Shown here: in pieces, positions 10,364 through 33,441 of the stretch
Position numbering within the stretch: position 1 is the first letter of the stretch
How the letters are laid out: each line of letters starts with the position of its first letter
From: Bacteroidota bacterium
Lineage (GTDB): Bacteria; Bacteroidota; Rhodothermia; Rhodothermales; JAHQVL01
Direction of reading: 5' to 3'
Assembly (NCBI GenBank): GCA_039111535.1
Contig: JBCCIM010000040.1
Span: 1 to 36,669 of the forward strand
Length of the DNA: 36,669 bases
The notes under the pieces: generated by a model
What the model saw: the letters and a program-made list of their open reading frames with translations, nothing else
Told to the model about the DNA's origin: nothing
Database searches by the model: none
Translations under genes and position numbers: made by a program

Positions 10364-11683
10364 TTAGAGCAGCCAGGTAACCAGTTCAGGAAAGAGGATG
10401 ATGAGCAAGAGACCTATCAGTTGGATGATAATAAAGGGAATAGCGCCACGGTATATATCGGCTGTTGTCAATGTAGGCGGTGCAACCCCCCGCAGGTAAA
10501 ACAAGGCAAACCCGAAAGGCGGCGTCAGAAAAGAAGTCTGCAGGTTCATCCCGATCATTACCCCAAACCAAACGAGGTCGATCCCAAGTACAGATGCGGC
10601 CGGCACAATCAGTGGCAATATGATAAAGGCTATTTCAAAAAAGTCGATAAAAAAGCCCAGCACAAAAATCACCACATTGGCAACGACCAACAGACCTATC
10701 ACACCACCGGGCAAATTTGTGAGCAAGTCTTCAATCCAGAAATCGCCGTAGAGCCCACGAAACACCAGCGCAAAAGCGGTCGACCCGATCAAAAGAAACA
10801 ACACCATGGACGTCAGACGCGTTGTAGCATCCATCGACTCAACCAGCGCTTTGAGCGTCAGCCGCTTGTTAACTGCGGCGAGAACCATAGCACCCACAGC
10901 ACCAAGTGCGCCCGCCTCTGTTGGCGTTGCAATGCCCGCGAAGATGCTTCCCAGCACAACCAGGATAAGCACAAGCGGCGGCAGCATCACCAGCAACACC
11001 CGTTTCAGTAGTTCGCTTTTCGACAATAATCTTTCTTCAGGCGGCAAAGCCGGCGCTTCTTCAGGCCGCATCACTGCTACAACCATGGTGTACCCGGCAT
11101 AGAGTACCGCCAGCATAATACCCGGAACCAGCGCCCCTTTGAACAAATCCCCAACAGAAATCCCCAACTGATCTGCAAGTACGACGAGCACAACGCTTGG
11201 TGGAATAATTTGTCCAAGCGTACCCGAGGCTGCAATAACGCCGGAGGCCAATCGGCCAGAATACCCATAGCGCAGCATAACAGGCAACGAAATCATCCCC
11301 ATGGCCACTACAGAAGCCCCTACGACACCCGTGGCAGCAGCAAGCAAGGCCCCAACAAAAACCACAGCCAGCGCAAGCCCACCTCGCATGGTGCCAAACA
11401 ATTGCCCGATCGTTTGCAGCAAGTCTTCTGCAAGCCGGGATTTCTCCAGGAGGGTGCCCATAAAAATGAAAAACGGTATGGCAAGGAGAACATAGTTCGA
11501 CATAACCCCAAAGGTCCGGTCGGGTAGGGCCAACAGGAGGTTCCAGTCAAATAGTCCTGCTTCCACGCCAATAAAGGCAAAGAACAAAGCCGTTCCGCCC
11601 AGGGCAAAAGCAACGGGGTAACCGAGGAAAATCAACGCAAGTGCAGCCACAAACATCAGTGGCCCTAGGAGATCCGGGCTCAT
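10364..11683 (-). CDS. dctM: TRAP transporter large permease subunit
   Basis: 439 residues with about a dozen hydrophobic segments throughout. Family features include the N-terminal 'GYPVAFALGG', the 'PFFIFMGTLLE' segment and the strongly conserved ASVVAMGMISLPVM plus ASGTLGQIIPPS region of DctM proteins. The subtype resembles the mannitol/chloroaromatic branch, but substrate cannot be inferred without the binding protein. The start ATG overlaps the stop of the small subunit by four bases (ATGA), so translation is coupled. It works with DctQ and an extracytoplasmic solute receptor to import organic acids using a sodium gradient. No DctP or TAXI receptor is encoded next to it. Confidence 0.9.
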   Translation of the reverse strand: MSPDLLGPLMFVAALALIFLGYPVAFALGGTALFFAFIGVEAGLFDWNLLLALPDRTFGVMSNYVLLAIPFFIFMGTLLEKSRLAEDLLQTIGQLFGTMRGGLALAVVFVGALLAAATGVVGASVVAMGMISLPVMLRYGYSGRLASGVIAASGTLGQIIPPSVVLVVLADQLGISVGDLFKGALVPGIMLAVLYAGYTMVVAVMRPEEAPALPPEERLLSKSELLKRVLLVMLPPLVLILVVLGSIFAGIATPTEAGALGAVGAMVLAAVNKRLTLKALVESMDATTRLTSMVLFLLIGSTAFALVFRGLYGDFWIEDLLTNLPGGVIGLLVVANVVIFVLGFFIDFFEIAFIILPLIVPAASVLGIDLVWFGVMIGMNLQTSFLTPPFGFALFYLRGVAPPTLTTADIYRGAIPFIIIQLIGLLLIILFPELVTWLL

Positions 11684-12243
11684 GCTTCACCTCCCACAGT
11701 CAGCTGTTCTTCGCCTGTAGCAGCATCTGTATTTCGCAGAATCGCTACCTGGTGAATGACCATAGATACCCCCTGTAAAATGAGGAGTATAAAGGCAATT
11801 GGGATAATGGTTTTGATGGGATATCGGGGTAAACCGCCGGGATCAGGAGACATCTCCCATACAGACCAGGAGTTCACAACAGAGGGCCACGACATGATGA
11901 GCATCAGGACGCAGAAGGGGAAGAGAAAAAGAAGCGTCCCGAGAAGATTGACCCAGGCTTTACCGCGCGCTGAGAGCCGGCCATAAAACACATCGACCCG
12001 CACATGCTTGTCGTGCCGCAGTGTATAGGCGGCCCCCAACAAGAACAGTACACTGAACAGGTACCACTGCAGTTCGATGTAAGTATTGGAGCTCATGCCC
12101 CAACCAGTGAACCTGTCAATGTATCGAGCAAGCGCATTGTACGCCCCAATCAACACCATAACCAGTGCAAGCCAATAGACCAGCTTGCCGATTCGTTCGT
12201 TGAGACGATCAATTTGAGAAGCAACACGGAGCCACAAACGCAT
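11680..12243 (-). CDS. dctQ: TRAP transporter small permease subunit
   Basis: 187 residues with four predicted membrane helices (about 17-38, 58-76, 99-120 and 142-165). The length is typical for DctQ. The 'LGAAYTLRHDKHVRVDVFYGRL' region is the conserved cytoplasmic loop of the family. It overlaps the large subunit by four bases, the usual TRAP arrangement. Upstream there is no solute-binding protein gene, only a 57-residue gene 124 bases away on the same strand. Confidence 0.9.
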   Translation of the reverse strand: MRLWLRVASQIDRLNERIGKLVYWLALVMVLIGAYNALARYIDRFTGWGMSSNTYIELQWYLFSVLFLLGAAYTLRHDKHVRVDVFYGRLSARGKAWVNLLGTLLFLFPFCVLMLIMSWPSVVNSWSVWEMSPDPGGLPRYPIKTIIPIAFILLILQGVSMVIHQVAILRNTDAATGEEQLTVGGEA

Positions 12244-12830: not shown

Positions 12831-12858
12831 TTGGCAAAAGTATCAGGGTCCGTATTAT
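12831..12858 (+). promoter_or_regulatory. Promoter of type 1 RNA copy 1
   Basis: TTGGCA (12831-12836) and TATTAT (12853-12858) are separated by 16 bases, close to the sigma-70 consensus. The equivalent -10 in copies 2, 3 and 4 is TATCAT (13159-13164), TATTAT (13497-13502) and TATAAT (13804-13809), each preceded by CG and lying 14-19 bases before the first stem. Clear -35 boxes are not seen for those copies. Confidence 0.55.
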
Positions 12859-12864
12859 GGTAGC

Positions 12865-13031
12865 AAGATCACACGCCGCAGAAGGCGTGAATGAAATTGC
12901 ACATCTTCGATATAGGGATGGAGGACACTGGAGGGGTAGAGCCTCCATCCCTGCACTTCTCTCCAAAGCAACCCACGTCAAAAGGCTACCTGTTAAATTG
13001 CTGCACGGACTTTCAAGTCTGTGCTTTTTTT
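12865..13031 (+). ncRNA. Type 1 structured RNA, copy 1
   Basis: This is a predicted transcript of about 165 bases. The 5' hairpin is CACGCC/GGCGTG (12872-12877 with 12884-12889). A linker with TTGCACATCT follows, then the main hairpin: 11 perfect pairs (12914-12924 with 12942-12952) closing a loop that contains CTGGAGGGGTAG. It then has TGCACTTCT and an intrinsic terminator (13003-13031). The promoter is given separately. I do not recognise the family. The transcript ends are inferred from the -10 box and the T-run. Confidence 0.65.
13003..13031 (+). terminator. Intrinsic terminator of type 1 RNA copy 1
   Basis: An 8-10 bp stem (13003-13012 with 13015-13024, one G-T pair) is followed directly by seven T (13025-13031). 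This is a textbook rho-independent terminator on the plus strand. Confidence 0.85.
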
Positions 13032-13167
13032 GTTTAACCCAACTTTCGCAATCCCCAAAGTACCTGGCCGGCACCACCCCTGCGGGAGTAGTTGCGAATA
13101 CAACAGGCAGGGTACGAGAATACATATCCGGCGGCATAGAATAGCTGCCAGTTGCCCGTATCATATA

Positions 13168-13290
13168 CACAAGTTCAAACGCCGCTCAAGGCGTGCTTAA
13201 AATTGCACATCTCTATTAAAGGGACGAAAGCCATCTGGAGGGGTAGCGCTTTCGTCCCTGCACTTCTTTAGGCAGGTTCGACTTTTCAGT
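13168..13290 (+). ncRNA. Type 1 structured RNA, copy 2
   Basis: The 5' hairpin is ACGCC/GGCGT (13179-13183 with 13190-13194). The TTGCACATCT linker follows. The main hairpin has 12 pairs (13220-13231 with 13248-13259) and the loop CATCTGGAGGGGTAGC. The 30 bases after the stem (13259-13288) are identical to those after copy 3 (13596-13625). A weak, decayed hairpin near 13338-13365 sits where copy 1 has its terminator; both are followed by GTTTAAC. The 3' end is therefore uncertain. Confidence 0.55.
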
Positions 13291-13505
13291 TTCAGTGCCG
13301 GCTACCTTCATCCAGCAACACTGCAAGACCAATTACATGCACAGGCGATAACGTCCATGCGTTTTAGTTTAACGCAACCTTGTTTAGGCGACGAGGCCTT
13401 AAACGCCGGCATCACCTCTCAAGGAGTAGCAGCAAATACGACAAGCAGGGTAGCAGATTGCATATACGGCAGCATAGAAAAACTGAATTACACTCGTATT
13501 ATATA

Positions 13506-13625
13506 CACAAGATTTCACGTCGGATGAGGCGTGTCATTTTGAACACTTCTCTTTTCAAGGGACGGAGGCCATCTGGAGGGGTAGGCCTTCGTCCCTGCAC
13601 TTCTTTAGGCAGGTTCGACTTTTCA
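13506..13625 (+). ncRNA. Type 1 structured RNA, copy 3
   Basis: The 5' hairpin is CACGTC/GGCGTG (13516-13521 with 13528-13533, one T-G pair). The main hairpin has 13 pairs (13558-13570 with 13584-13596, one G-T pair) around ATCTGGAGGGGTA. Its upstream flank from about 13404 aligns with that of copy 2 from about 13070, including GCATAGAA and a TATTAT box, so the repeat unit of about 340 bases was duplicated as a whole. No terminator is visible close by. Confidence 0.55.
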
Positions 13626-13814
13626 ATGCTCGCAGCATCGCGGACACCGAGCCCATAGCGATACAGTCAACAGCTCTTTATTCTATTACAACCTCACAGC
13701 ATGCGACCTTCCGCATGTATAGTACTGAGGTACCAGTATAATCTTCTTCCTTAGCGCCAGCAACTTGGGTTTGTTACGGTATATCTCGCGCAGGGGAACG
13801 GCGTATAATACATT

Positions 13815-13945
13815 AAACAACATGCCGGGTGAGGCATGCTGTTTTGCTCACATCTAAGAAAAGGGACGAAGGCCATCTGGAGGGGTATAGCCTTCGTCCC
13901 TTCATCTCTTCTACTGCCACGCAGAAAGCCTGGCAGTCTTTTTTT
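13815..13945 (+). ncRNA. Type 1 structured RNA, copy 4
   Basis: A perfect TATAAT (13804-13809) precedes the 5' hairpin CATGCC/GGCATG (13821-13826 with 13833-13838). Compared with copy 1, one C-G pair has become T-A on both sides. The main hairpin has 13 pairs (13861-13873 with 13890-13902) with loop CATCTGGAGGGGTATA. A terminator follows at 13913-13945. The predicted RNA is about 130 bases and is the most compact copy. Confidence 0.65.
13913..13945 (+). terminator. Intrinsic terminator of type 1 RNA copy 4
   Basis: ACTGCCA/TGGCAGT (13913-13919 with 13931-13937) forms seven perfect pairs and is followed by C and seven T (13939-13945). Confidence 0.8.
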
Positions 13946-14029
13946 GGGCTTGTCTTTAGACCGGGATCAGATTAACCATCAGATTAGGTAAGTTTTTGCT
14001 AAAGAGTTTCGCCAGGTCTCCGATATATG

Positions 14030-14100
14030 TATTAGGCACATCTCTCAAGAGGACGGAGGCCACAACGGTGGGGTAGGCCTCCGTCCCGCACTTCTCTCTA
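14030..14100 (+). ncRNA. Type 1 structured RNA, copy 5 (degenerate)
   Basis: The main hairpin is kept with 11 perfect pairs (14051-14061 with 14076-14086), preceded by GCACATCTCT and followed by GCACTTCTCT. The loop has drifted to ACAACGGTGGGGTA and lost the GGAGG core, and I find no 5' hairpin. The copy may be decaying or specialised. Its transcript could run to the terminator at 14363. Confidence 0.4.
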
Positions 14101-14396: not shown

Positions 14397-14922
14397 CAAA
14401 TTTAGCGTCCCTGCACACGCACAAGAAAAAAGTTTGGCACCCTAAATGAATGGCTATATGCAGATTCATGTTGTACTAAATTCACCCGGCGCGTAAGTAG
14501 GCTGTGCATAACTTTTGTTCTTTTTGTGTCAGCCGAAAAAAATTACGCCACCGCCTGCGGGCGGAGTGAATCTGGTAGTACTTCAGCAAAGCGATTGACA
14601 AAAAGAGCTGAACGTTCTTTGCAGTTTTGTCTACACAGGCGCGCTCAATACACGCTATCTGCGCAGCTACTTCCCCCCAACTTCACCCCGTAGCAGCGAA
14701 GAAATGATCGGCGTGTATCAGGATCAGGAAAGCGCAAATGAACAGCTTAAGATACCCCAGTCCGATAAGCCGTTAACGAGCAGTCAAATGCGCCAAAGGT
14801 GCAGCCCCGCTGTGCCTAATGTAGAAGTGAGATTTGCAATCGCCGGGCTAAATTACAAGCGTTCAAACAAGGACACACCTACCGCCCAGAAGGTAGATTC
14901 TTTGAGAAACTGATATTCCCAA

Positions 14923-14993
14923 ATTGCTGCTAATACCGGGGGGCAAGCAGCAATAGTAGAGGACCGGCCGGGACCTAGTCCTGGCCGGACTTC
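14923..14993 (+). repeat. Type 2 repeat unit 1 (hairpins A and B)
   Basis: Hairpin A has stem 14923-14930/14947-14954. Hairpin B has stem 14964-14974/14978-14988 with one G-T pair, extended by GAGG/CTTC outside an A-A mismatch. Confidence 0.75.
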
Positions 14994-15073
14994 GCCACTA
15001 TTGACTCCTCTGGTATCTGTAACAGCCTGTCTGCTTCAAAGAAGCGCGCGCATGTTACAAGAGACAGCATCAA

Positions 15074-15145
15074 CATTGCTGCTTTAATCGGGGGGCAAGC
15101 GGCAATGGTAGAGGACCGGCCGGGACTTAGTCCTGGCCGGACTTC
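15074..15145 (+). repeat. Type 2 repeat unit 2 (hairpins A and B)
   Basis: Hairpin A is extended to nine pairs by a C-G closing pair (15074-15082/15099-15107, one T-G pair). The loop begins TTTAATC instead of TAATACC but keeps the six G and CAA. Hairpin B is at 15116-15126/15130-15140. Confidence 0.75.
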
Positions 15146-15218
15146 AACCCGACTCCATCACAGAAGGAGTCCATCACAGAAAGATTTCCCTGGCGCATTT
15201 GAACACGCGCCATTCGAG

Positions 15219-15289
15219 TTTGCTGCTAATACCGGGGGGCAAGCAGCAAAACTAGAGGACCGGCCAGGACCTAGTCCTGGCCGGACTTC
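15219..15289 (+). repeat. Type 2 repeat unit 3 (hairpins A and B)
   Basis: The first pair of hairpin A is T-A here instead of A-T (15219-15226/15243-15250), a compensatory change. Hairpin B (15260-15270/15274-15284) is fully paired because A-T replaces the G-T of units 1 and 2. Confidence 0.75.
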
Positions 15290-15335
15290 GACCTCTGAAG
15301 TCCTCGAATATAGAAAAAGATTTATAGATTTCAAT

Positions 15336-15367
15336 ATTGCTGCTAATACCGGGGGGCAAGCAGCAAT
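15336..15367 (+). repeat. Type 2 repeat unit 4 (hairpin A only)
   Basis: Stem 15336-15343/15360-15367 with the canonical loop. Hairpin B is replaced by the terminator that starts three bases later. Confidence 0.75.
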
Positions 15368-15369
15368 TC

Positions 15370-15401
15370 AAAAGCCAACCAGCTTCTGCTGGTTGGCTTT
15401 T
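15370..15401 (+). terminator. 14-bp intrinsic terminator ending the type 2 array
   Basis: Stem 15370-15383 with 15388-15401 is perfect over 14 pairs with a TTCT loop. The right arm ends in four T followed by AC and five T. The left arm begins with four A, so it can act in both directions. It insulates alkB from upstream transcription. Confidence 0.88.
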
Positions 15402-15529
15402 ACTTTTTATATGGCTTGCCAAAGATCTTCTTCAGAACGTGCAGCCGACAGCAAGGCAGCGAAAAAAAGCCGGCTACGTTGTACCTTATAACTTGCACCC
15501 GCTAACCGGCCACGGAAGAGCCTCCTTGC

Positions 15530-16600
15530 ATGACTGCACGCATCAAACTTCTGAAATACCTGAGCGCTTTCACACTCCCCCTGACAATGGCAATTGCCCT
15601 GAGCTTGGGCGGCTGGTGGAGCTTTTTGCCATTTGTTTACGTTTTCGGACTTATTCCGGGCGTTGAGCTTTTTCTTAAGCCACAACCCATCAACCTCACT
15701 GCAGCAGAAGAAGCACTCGCCAAGGCCGATCCATTTTTTGACTGGCTACTCTATCTCACCATCCCTACACAACTCGGTTTTCTCGCCTGGTACCTGATCA
15801 GCATCAACACGCATGCTTTTGAGGCCTTTGAATATGTTGGTCTTGTATTATCCATGGGTATTATGTGCGGCGTTTTCGGAATTAACGTTGGGCACGAATT
15901 GGGGCACCGGACCAAAAACCATGAAATCAAGCTTGCTAAAATTGCACTGGCAAGCTCCCTCTACATGCATTTCTACATTGAACACAACCGCGGCCACCAC
16001 AAGCGGGTTGCGACGTACGACGACCCGGCAACAGCACGGCTTGGGGAGAACATTTTTGTATTCTGGATCAGAAGCATCACCTTCAGCTTCCTGTCTGCCT
16101 GGGAGATAGAAGCAAAACGGTTGAAAAAAAAGAGCCAGCCCTGGTTTTCGTTGCACAATGAAATGCTACAATTTATGTTCATTCAGGCCTGCATCCTGAT
16201 TGGCATCGCAATCCTATTTAGCATCCAAACCATGGCCTTCTTTATCCTGGCTGCTTTGGTTGGTATCCTGCTCCTGGAAACTGTCAATTACATTGAGCAC
16301 TACGGTCTCCAGCGCACCTTAAAAGAAAATGGACGGTTCGAACGCACAAATCCACATCATTCGTGGAATTCCAACCATGTGATAGGACGCCTGATGCTTT
16401 TTGAGTTGTCGCGGCATTCTGATCATCACTACGAGGCAAGCCGCAAATACCAGGTGCTCCGCCACCACGATGAGAGTCCGCAAATGCCAACGGGTTACCC
16501 TGGTATGATGGTGATGGCCCTTATGCCTCCGCTCTGGTTTTATGTGATGCACCGCCGGCTTGACGCAATAAGTACCGAAGTAGAACCCACTGCGACCTAA
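15530..16600 (+). CDS. alkB: Alkane 1-monooxygenase (AlkB-type membrane di-iron hydroxylase)
   Basis: 356 residues from ATG 15530, with GGAAGAG upstream. It hydroxylates the terminal carbon of medium-chain alkanes, taking electrons from rubredoxin. All histidine boxes are present: HELGH (122-126), EHNRGHH (151-157), RHSDHH (295-300), plus the AlkB signature NYIEHYG (253-259). About six membrane helices surround them. The AlkB signature separates it from fatty-acid desaturases. There is no fused rubredoxin domain and no rubredoxin or reductase gene nearby, so electrons must come from elsewhere in the genome. The gene stands alone between the RNA arrays and convergent rarA, with 11 bases between the stops. 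Confidence 0.93.
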   Translation: MTARIKLLKYLSAFTLPLTMAIALSLGGWWSFLPFVYVFGLIPGVELFLKPQPINLTAAEEALAKADPFFDWLLYLTIPTQLGFLAWYLISINTHAFEAFEYVGLVLSMGIMCGVFGINVGHELGHRTKNHEIKLAKIALASSLYMHFYIEHNRGHHKRVATYDDPATARLGENIFVFWIRSITFSFLSAWEIEAKRLKKKSQPWFSLHNEMLQFMFIQACILIGIAILFSIQTMAFFILAALVGILLLETVNYIEHYGLQRTLKENGRFERTNPHHSWNSNHVIGRLMLFELSRHSDHHYEASRKYQVLRHHDESPQMPTGYPGMMVMALMPPLWFYVMHRRLDAISTEVEPTAT

Positions 16601-16611
16601 GCAGGGTTAAC

Positions 16612-17988
16612 TCACTTGGCTCCCCCTTCTTTCTTGTAGCGTTCAAGCCGCTTCTGAAGCCCTTCTTCACCATCACGTTCACGTTGCTGTTGCAATCGTT
16701 CGGCAACGTCTTTTTCATATCCCATCTCCCCAGGCTTGTAAAAATAGGTACCCTGCATTTCGTTGGGCAGGTATTGTTGCGGCACATAATGGTCGCGAAA
16801 GGCATGGGGATACGCATACCCTTCACCATGCCCCAATCCTTTTTTGTCCCGACTGCCATCTTTTAAGTGGTTAGGGACATCATGTGAAAGCTCTTCCTGG
16901 ACAAAATGGAGTGCATCGAAGAAGGCCAGCGAGCTATTGCTTTTTGGCGCGGTAGCCAGATACAGGCAGCACTCAGCCAACAGAAATCGCCCCTCAGGCA
17001 TGCCCACGTACTCAAAGCCTTGTGCAGCTGCCGTAGCAATTTGTAATGCGCGTGGATCTGCGAGGCCGATGTCCTCTGCAGCAAAAATGAGCATCCTCCG
17101 AAGAATGAAGCGCGGATTTTCGCCGGCGTAAATCATACGCGCCATCCAGTACAATGCAGCATCCGCGTCGGAGCCACGCAAGCTTTTGATGAAAGCACTG
17201 ATGGTATCAAAGTGCGCGTCGCCCTCTTTGTCATACAGCACGGCCCGCTGCTGGATACTGTCTTCAGCCACTTCAAGGGAGATAAATAGCTGCCCCGACT
17301 CATCTGGCGGTGTGGTTTCTACAGCAAGTTCGAGTGCGTTCAACAGCGAGCGTGCATCGCCATTTGCAGTAGACACGAGGTGCGCCAACGCTTTAGGGTC
17401 AATAACTACGTTGCGATCGCCAAACCCGCGCTCTTTGTCGCGGAGCGCCATTTCGACCACCTGAAAAAGGTCTTCTTCCGTGAGGGTTCGGAGCTCAAAA
17501 ATGCGAGACCGACTCACCAGCGCCTTGATCACCTCGAAATACGGATTCTCTGTAGTCGCACCAATAAGTACAACCGTTCCGTTTTCCACATGCGGCAGTA
17601 ATGCATCTTGTTGCGCCTTGTTGAACCGGTGCACCTCATCCACAAACAGGATCGTACGTTGCTGATGCAATGAAATACGCTGTTGCGCTTTCTGGATAGC
17701 TTCACGAATATCCTTAACTCCGGCCAACACCGCATTCAGCGCAAGAAAGTGGGAAGAGGTGGTATTGGCGATAATACGGGCAAGCGTCGTTTTACCTGTC
17801 CCGGGCGGGCCAAAGAAAATGAGCGATGAAATACGATCTGCCTCGATGGAACGCCGCAACAACTTGCCGGCGCCAAGAATATGCTGCTGCCCAATAAACG
17901 TATGCAAAGACCGCGGCCGCATGCGATCTGCAAGGGGCGCATTTGACATCCTGTACCGTTTGGCAGCTTCCTGAAAAAGATCAGACAT
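16612..17988 (-). CDS. rarA: Replication-associated recombination protein A (AAA+ ATPase)
   Basis: 458 residues. This is a clamp-loader-like ATPase (MgsA/WRNIP1 family) acting at stalled forks. The N-terminal 'PLADRMRPRSLHTFIGQQHIL' is the family signature. Walker A GPPGTGKT is at 60-67, Walker B ILFVDE at 113-118 and the sensor 1 loop GATTENP at 143-149. The C-terminal part has the tetramerisation and 'YPHAFRDHYVPQQYLP' blocks typical of RarA. It is the last of three minus-strand genes (Nramp-like, UDG-like, rarA), with a 128-base gap before it that may hold its own promoter. Confidence 0.95.
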   Translation of the reverse strand: MSDLFQEAAKRYRMSNAPLADRMRPRSLHTFIGQQHILGAGKLLRRSIEADRISSLIFFGPPGTGKTTLARIIANTTSSHFLALNAVLAGVKDIREAIQKAQQRISLHQQRTILFVDEVHRFNKAQQDALLPHVENGTVVLIGATTENPYFEVIKALVSRSRIFELRTLTEEDLFQVVEMALRDKERGFGDRNVVIDPKALAHLVSTANGDARSLLNALELAVETTPPDESGQLFISLEVAEDSIQQRAVLYDKEGDAHFDTISAFIKSLRGSDADAALYWMARMIYAGENPRFILRRMLIFAAEDIGLADPRALQIATAAAQGFEYVGMPEGRFLLAECCLYLATAPKSNSSLAFFDALHFVQEELSHDVPNHLKDGSRDKKGLGHGEGYAYPHAFRDHYVPQQYLPNEMQGTYFYKPGEMGYEKDVAERLQQQRERDGEEGLQKRLERYKKEGGAK

Positions 17989-32593: not shown

Positions 32594-33262
32594 TTAAAAC
32601 TGAAACCCTACATCCATGCTAAAATCAAGGACGTTGAGCGAACCATAGTTATACCCGTAGTGGTGATTCGAACAGGAAACGTACCTATACCGGCCCTGGC
32701 TCATGATAAAAATGTTTTTGCTGACGTTCACAATTAATCCAAGAGACACTTCAGCGCCAAAATTCAACCCGCGCTTTTCAGCAAAAAGGGGCAAATCAGG
32801 ATTGGGACCCTGCTGAACTGCATAACTATAGGGTGCTCCGGTAATTGGATCGACTTTTTCAGTTTGCCTGTAGAAATGGGCAGACAACCCGACGCCGGCT
32901 ACAGGAAAAACGAGCGCACTAGGACTCGGGAGTGCGTACGTATAGCTGGCAGTGAGCGGTAAAGATCTGAATTTCCAGTCAGCCTTGATTTGGTGAACAC
33001 GCTCCAGCGCCTTTGGCATAGAAGCTGAGCGAAAGTACTCTGCACGCAGGTTAAACGCGTGTGGACCACGCAACGGAAAGCTAACAGTAACTGCTTTGGA
33101 AGAAGTGCTCAGGCTAATGCGGTAAGGCTCATTATGCGTTGGTGCCGGCGCCGTATCCAGGATATAAACAGCCCGCTTCTGCGCACACATCTGCTTTGCA
33201 AAAAACAAGCAGATTGTCATCAAAAGACAACAGCAAACGCAATGTGACGAACGTGGCGACAT
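32594..33262 (-). CDS. Candidate outer-membrane beta-barrel protein
   Basis: 222 residues. The N-terminus is a signal peptide (CLLMTICLFFAKQMCAQ, cysteine-rich). The mature part alternates short amphipathic strands (YRISLSTSSKAVTVSFPL, AFNLRAEYFR, LPLTASYTYALP, NFGAEVSLGLIVNV) and ends in VGFQF, the aromatic terminus of outer-membrane barrels. About 8 strands would fit, a porin-family or OmpW-like size. No homology is recognised. It is the only gene between the dehydrogenase and the protease, both also on the minus strand. Confidence 0.65.
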   Translation of the reverse strand: MSPRSSHCVCCCLLMTICLFFAKQMCAQKRAVYILDTAPAPTHNEPYRISLSTSSKAVTVSFPLRGPHAFNLRAEYFRSASMPKALERVHQIKADWKFRSLPLTASYTYALPSPSALVFPVAGVGLSAHFYRQTEKVDPITGAPYSYAVQQGPNPDLPLFAEKRGLNFGAEVSLGLIVNVSKNIFIMSQGRYRYVSCSNHHYGYNYGSLNVLDFSMDVGFQF

Positions 33263-33441
33263 GGGTAAACCGACAATAATTTATACTGTACACAGATATC
33301 CGACGGGAGTGGGGGGTCAGACCAAGCACAGCTAACAAACGTAGTATCGGTATTACACTCGGTGCCTTAAGTCGAATACGAAAAATTTGCGGGCCCTTTA
33401 CACAAATGCGGGTCAACAGGGGCCGCGAAATGGGGAAGCAC

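Follow-up and report, generated by a model that had tools for sequence, protein, structure and literature searches.

Descriptions of small RNAs linked to the flagellar sigma factor come mainly from enterobacteria and Campylobacter, and our literature search found no small RNA of this sort for Rhodothermales. The Campylobacter RNAs CjNC1 and CjNC4 (CJnc10 and CJnc170) are sigma-28-driven paralogs of less than 50 nt, present in two copies, and their targets among the leaders of sigma-54 flagellar genes have been predicted and partly tested (PMC4626219). Sigma-28 also drives UhpU, MotR, FliX, and FlgO in Escherichia coli (PMC10578931). In Listeria monocytogenes, the five homologous small RNAs LhrC1 to LhrC5 bind mRNA through CU-rich sites and are induced by the LisRK two-component system under cell envelope stress (PMC4132741).

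The type 1 element described here is a previously uncatalogued family within the known kind of multicopy small RNAs. Like CjNC1 and CjNC4, its members are small paralogous noncoding RNAs that occupy different intergenic sites and are conserved among relatives, and at two of its loci they have a sigma-28 promoter with a CGAT-type −10 box. The Campylobacter pair differs in having a single shared binding region with a terminator hairpin and in lacking both an array and copies with housekeeping promoters (PMC4626219). The type 1 copies are free-standing and paralogous, while the E. coli RNAs derive from mRNA untranslated regions (PMC10578931). The multicopy design with redundant candidate binding sites in each copy resembles that of LhrC1 to LhrC5, which lack a flagellar promoter, and the likeness is one of design, with no homology claimed (PMC4132741). 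As in CsrB and RsmZ, a motif is repeated in hairpin loops, but the type 1 genome lacks CsrA, and type 1 loops have G[AT]GGGGTA as their core in place of GGA. The family is distinctive in being multicopy, in combining two promoter classes with one RNA core, and in belonging to a single bacterial family. We consider it likely, with a probability of roughly 0.6, that type 1 represents a multicopy family of trans-acting small RNAs with a housekeeping and a flagellar sigma arm, most likely acting by base pairing.

A tandem array of structured RNAs before rarA

The window, by which we mean the whole analyzed stretch of 36,669 nucleotides, is part of contig C40 of a 6.6-Mb draft genome (G000), and its source organism is a flagellated relative of Rhodothermus. 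The array is flanked by dctQ on one side and a fatty-acid desaturase gene on the other, behind which sits rarA/mgsA (Table 1). We found no convincing coding sequence in the array region between dctQ and the desaturase gene. This region holds five plus-strand copies of the type 1 element at 12.85 to 14.10 kb, separated from c1 to c5 by successive distances of 307, 338, 305, and 187 bases.

The initial annotation had assigned all five copies a shared plan. Five copies do exist, but the plan fits only c1 to c4, each of which consists of a TATAAT-like box, a 5' hairpin, GCACATCT, a hairpin of 12 to 13 pairs with the loop CTGGAGGGGTAG, and GCACTTCT. We count c5 as a shorter variant because it lacks the 5' hairpin and carries a loop of the form ..GGTGGGGTA in place of CTGGAGGGGTAG. 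Among the full copies, the loop of c4 ends in TAT rather than TAG, and c1 is missing one base. Clear intrinsic terminators follow c1 and c4, in agreement with the earlier count of at least two complete promoter-to-terminator units; a count of all five would be wrong. A terminator also follows one copy in G002, a weak one lies about 90 nt beyond c2, and no clear terminator follows c2, c3, c5, or the single copies found elsewhere. GGTACC/GTACCA boxes are present about 70 to 130 bases upstream of several array copies, and their reading as a regulator site is only a guess because the same motif is found at other, scattered positions of the window.

Table 1. Positions of the type 1 array, the type 2 repeat RNA, and associated features (window coordinates unless a locus is named)
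Feature	Position	Strand	Details
dctQ	11680-12243	-	
c1 promoter, sigma-70-like	12831-12858	+	TTGGCA, 16 nt, TATTAT; -10 box at the same position in c2, c3, c4, and G002 copies
c1, predicted small RNA of ~165 nt	12866-13031	+	Copy 12870-12962; 5' hairpin 12872-12889; GCACATCT 12899-12906; long hairpin 12914-12952; loop CTGGAGGGGTAG 12928-12939; GCACTTCT 12953-12960; terminator 13003-13031
c2	13159-13269	+	Copy 13176-13269; -10 box TATCAT 13159-13164; 5' hairpin; GCACATCT 13205-13212; long hairpin; loop 13235-13246; GCACTTCT 13260-13267
c3	13497-13606	+	Copy 13514-13606; -10 box TATTAT 13497-13502; 5' hairpin; ACACTTCT 13543-13550; long hairpin; loop 13573-13584; GCACTTCT 13597-13604
c4	13804-13945	+	Copy 13818-13911; -10 box TATAAT 13804-13809; 5' hairpin; TCACATCT; long hairpin; loop CTGGAGGGGTAT; terminator 13913-13945
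c5 promoter, sigma-28 (FliA) type	14000-14025	+	TAAAG-N15-CCGATA; same motif before flagellin genes
c5, dispersed-type variant	14036-14097	+	GCACATCT 14036-14043; hairpin with GGTGGGGTA loop; GCACTTCT 14088-14095
Type 2 repeat RNA, four units	about 14780-15405	+	Units 14921-15404; terminator-like hairpin 15370-15401; same place in G001 and G002 (L041 2575-3235; L042 2940-3505)
Fatty-acid desaturase gene	15530-16600	+	
rarA/mgsA	16612-17988	-	
222-codon ORF	32594-33262	-	
Sigma-28-like match	33345-33370	-	TTAAG-N15-CCGATA
GGTACC/GTACCA boxes	12778, 12802, 13729		Also L042 1926, 2332, 2379; L041 1750, 1795
Phage-integrase-family protein	L048 393-1607		G001

The type 1 element is a structured RNA rather than a product of chance. 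Across the five copies, 96.4% of stem cells are paired, with four double-sided pair changes, and none of 500 shuffles matched this pairing and covariation. Pairing fell to 36 to 47% when the partner was slid by 1 to 3 columns, and the folding z-scores of the copies range from -2.5 to -4.8. Compensatory changes occur in 7 of the 10 pairs of the long hairpin when 17 copies from three genera are compared, and the 5' hairpin is kept in seven array copies of these genera even though its stem sequences are unrelated (e.g., ACGCC/GGCGT versus CACATTAAGT/ACTTAATGTG). The loop and the flanking GCACATCT and GCACTTCT stretches are kept while the stems vary by compensatory changes, and the covariation in both the 5 and the 17 copies bears out the earlier reading of this pattern as that of functional RNA. 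A search of the window against Rfam 15 produced no family at gathering score and nothing at a loose E value, with weak matches elsewhere in the region falling below threshold. The 6S RNA models RF00013 and RF01685 had no match in the window, its own genome, or the relatives.

Directly after the array lies a second repeat RNA (type 2), which is not homologous to type 1 and comprises exactly four units in each of three genera. All four units carry the invariant loop CGGGGGGCAAGC, units 1 to 3 have a second, covarying hairpin, and the last unit ends in a terminator-like hairpin; conserved TGC[GT]CCAAAGGTGCA and TTCTTTGAGA stretches precede the units. Matches to the type 2 model outside the family were judged by eye to be ordinary GC terminators or chance, and type 2 is confined to the family within the genomes searched. 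This four-unit RNA represents a second unknown at the same conserved locus.

Distribution and synteny of the type 1 family

We constructed a covariance model from the window copies alone, which identified four further copies in G000, for a total of nine, together with copies in two genomes of other genera from the same family (G001 and G002). The orthologous copies in these genera scored E values of 6e-12 to 2e-5. This model found no copies in the 57 other genomes of the order that were searched, and a later one found none in 242 other genomes from the class. When 84,980 GTDB species were scanned with a strict pattern, the sole match was a Rhodothermaceae MAG that corresponds to G002, the same scan of viral contigs had none, and a short-loop pattern with two mismatches allowed returned only background noise in 40 genomes. 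Within the genomes searched, type 1 occurs in a single bacterial family, and its origin is therefore traceable. The initial annotation had proposed a covariance-model search of Rfam and Rhodothermales genomes and would have yielded if no other genome carried the element; Rfam gave no match, and the element recurs in two further genera, inside one Rhodothermales family only.

The array is syntenic in all three genera, with type 1 copies, type 2 units, and then rarA, and with dctQ on the other side in two of them. Single copies likewise recur at equivalent sites: upstream of and divergent from a PAS/HisKA histidine kinase gene in all three genera, flanked by M50 peptidase and nuclease genes (the M50/nuclease/GH32 locus) in two, and beside an amidase gene in two, where the third genus, at a contig end, has upstream sequence in common. 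Sequence identity at the kinase locus is 70 to 80% in the core and 19 to 44% in the flanks. Downstream of the single copies, most genes are encoded on the opposite strand or vary from one genus to another. On this pattern of synteny, the copies appear to be inherited RNA genes rather than mobile repeats. The syntenic recurrence, the lack of an Rfam match, the covariation, and the promoter-terminator placement of c1 and c4 uphold the original proposal of an unrecognized family of tandem structured RNAs, which had overlooked the dispersed single copies, the second, flagellar sigma promoter class, and the membership of c5 in the dispersed type. The amidase-side copy of G001 was counted once because its contig, C192 (L048 and L049), reads as an inverted duplicate around it, probably an assembly artifact. 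A phage-integrase-family protein is encoded near this copy.

Two promoter classes and the flagellar sigma factor

The sigma-28/FliA consensus is TAAAGTTT-N11-GCCGATAA. An alignment of the kinase-side copies reveals an unchanged [CG]TTAAG-N15-CCGATA immediately before the element, in the same register as this consensus. Both c5 and the three kinase-side copies are located 8 to 10 bases 3' of a TWAAG-N15-CCGATA promoter, and in each of the three genomes, TTAAG-N15-[ACG]CGATA precedes one orthologous flagellin gene, 60 to 63 nt before its ATG. Flagellar contigs totaling 228 kb contain the motif 10 times and its reversed control once. A promoter matrix that we built from flagellar gene promoters only has matches at c5 of both G000 and G001 and at the kinase-side copy of each of the three genomes, all with a spacer of 15 and p = 0.003 each, the limit set by 300 shuffles. 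These matches lie 8 to 10 nt before GCACATC, which places the predicted transcript start only a few bases from the conserved 5' motif.

A promoter of this type directly upstream, as expected of a sigma-28-dependent small RNA, is thus present at c5 and the kinase-side copies. For c1 to c4 it is ruled out by the same matrix (shuffle p of 0.69 to 1.0), and these copies instead have TATAAT-like boxes and the additional 5' hairpin. The matrix found no clear sigma-28 promoter at the nuclease-side and CcmF/TauE copies or at the degenerate c5 of G002, and only a borderline match with odd spacing at the amidase copies. The flagellar link is limited to two loci, c5 and the kinase-side site, because the remaining copies have no clear sigma-28 promoter. 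FliA itself scores above the curated cutoff in all three genomes, and the fliA gene of G000 is part of a fliR-flhB-flhA-flhF-flhG-fliA cluster. FliA-type genes are also found in related Rhodothermales families without the RNA, and FliA alone therefore does not account for the distribution. We infer from the promoter sequences that the c5 and kinase-side copies are probably transcribed by FliA. Elsewhere in the window, a sigma-28-like match lies 83 bases upstream of a 222-codon ORF that has no Pfam match.

Possible modes of action

As trans-acting small RNAs, each copy would present the G-rich loop G[AU]GGGGUA on a rigid GC hairpin, flanked by single-stranded GCAC[AU]UCU on the 5' side and GCAC[UC]UCU on the 3' side. 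Each of the array copies c1 to c4 would be expressed from a housekeeping-type promoter of its own, and a 5' hairpin at the start of the RNA would protect it. Expression of the c5 and PAS histidine kinase-side copies would be driven by the sigma-28/FliA promoter, and their transcripts would begin at, or very nearly at, the 5' GCACAUCU, a predicted start that would make GCACAUCU a 5'-end seed. The former would report housekeeping transcription and the latter flagellar-sigma activity, and with common seeds, growth-coupled and motility-coupled copies could share targets. The pyrimidine-rich repeated stretches, possibly also the G-rich loop, would pair with mRNAs. By analogy with the known systems, base pairing in trans is probably the mechanism: each RNA has two or more open, pyrimidine-rich GCAC[AUC]UCU stretches, with further ones in the amidase-side copies. 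Homologous copies have their own promoters and terminators as in multicopy sibling small RNAs, the terminators being confined to c1, c4, and one G002 copy. No pairing site in the flagellin leaders is conserved and better than shuffled sequences at p < 0.05 in every genus, and the pairing energies of the motif and loop with flagellar leaders are on average no better than with internal coding windows. Since some copies appear to be switched on by the factor of the flagella genes, we suggest that the RNAs may tune cell motility, which would give a concrete connection, open to experiment, between motility and an RNA family in a group that has received little study.

Identical motifs repeated in loops and single strands, many copies, and a loop kept while the stems vary would also suit a protein sponge, in which the loops and GCACWUCU titrate an RNA-binding protein as CsrB and RsmZ titrate CsrA. 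However, CsrA was found in none of 21 Rhodothermales searched, with the control search positive in E. coli and B. subtilis, and a CsrA sponge specifically is ruled out because CsrA is absent from the genome. In addition, GGA is absent from single-copy loops and occurs in the loop of array copies only, unlike the several looped GGA motifs of CsrB and RsmZ. A sponge for a different protein is still conceivable, and we regard the sponge reading overall as unlikely. It is rather less credible that the CCGATA promoters are coincidental or belong to another sigma factor, which would leave an ordinary stress small-RNA family unrelated to motility. The motif is clear only at c5 and the kinase-side copy and is present elsewhere in the genome too, but all five intact copies of these types, from three genera, match a matrix made without them at a fixed distance, and the orthologous flagellins are preceded by the same motif.

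Two further readings would deny the copies a role as independent RNA genes, and both seem very improbable to us. Dispersed copies carry a GC palindrome, which would be compatible with mobile palindromic DNA (REP/RAYT- or MITE-like elements) or another kind of dispersed DNA repeat, but the genome has just nine copies, these occupy the same gene neighborhoods across genera, and the promoter is conserved in a fixed register with the loop in one orientation relative to it. The sites are orthologous instead of scattered as for REP/RAYT and MITE repeats, and no transposase was recognized among the flanking proteins scanned, although an integrase-family protein is encoded beside the G001 amidase copy. 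Cis-acting leaders or attenuators, similar to riboswitches, would explain why the G000 copy at C8:66342 and the kinase-side copy of G002 have a co-oriented gene close downstream. In contrast, no notable ORF follows the array, and terminators close c1 and c4. Most of the single copies point toward a gene encoded on the other strand, and at the kinase locus the genera differ in the gene that lies downstream.

An extension of the trans-acting small RNA reading, speculative and in our view doubtful, is that the locus before rarA might serve as a family-specific RNA control hub. Type 1, with both sigma classes, and type 2, with its G6-loop hairpins, would cooperate through their G-rich loops to couple growth state to swimming by way of one new RNA-binding protein, a C-rich partner RNA common to both, or a four-stranded G structure.

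As a separate observation, the leaders of flagellin paralogs (L145, L150, and L153) have GTGCTCGCACCAC in common across the three genera, located inside a likely hairpin.
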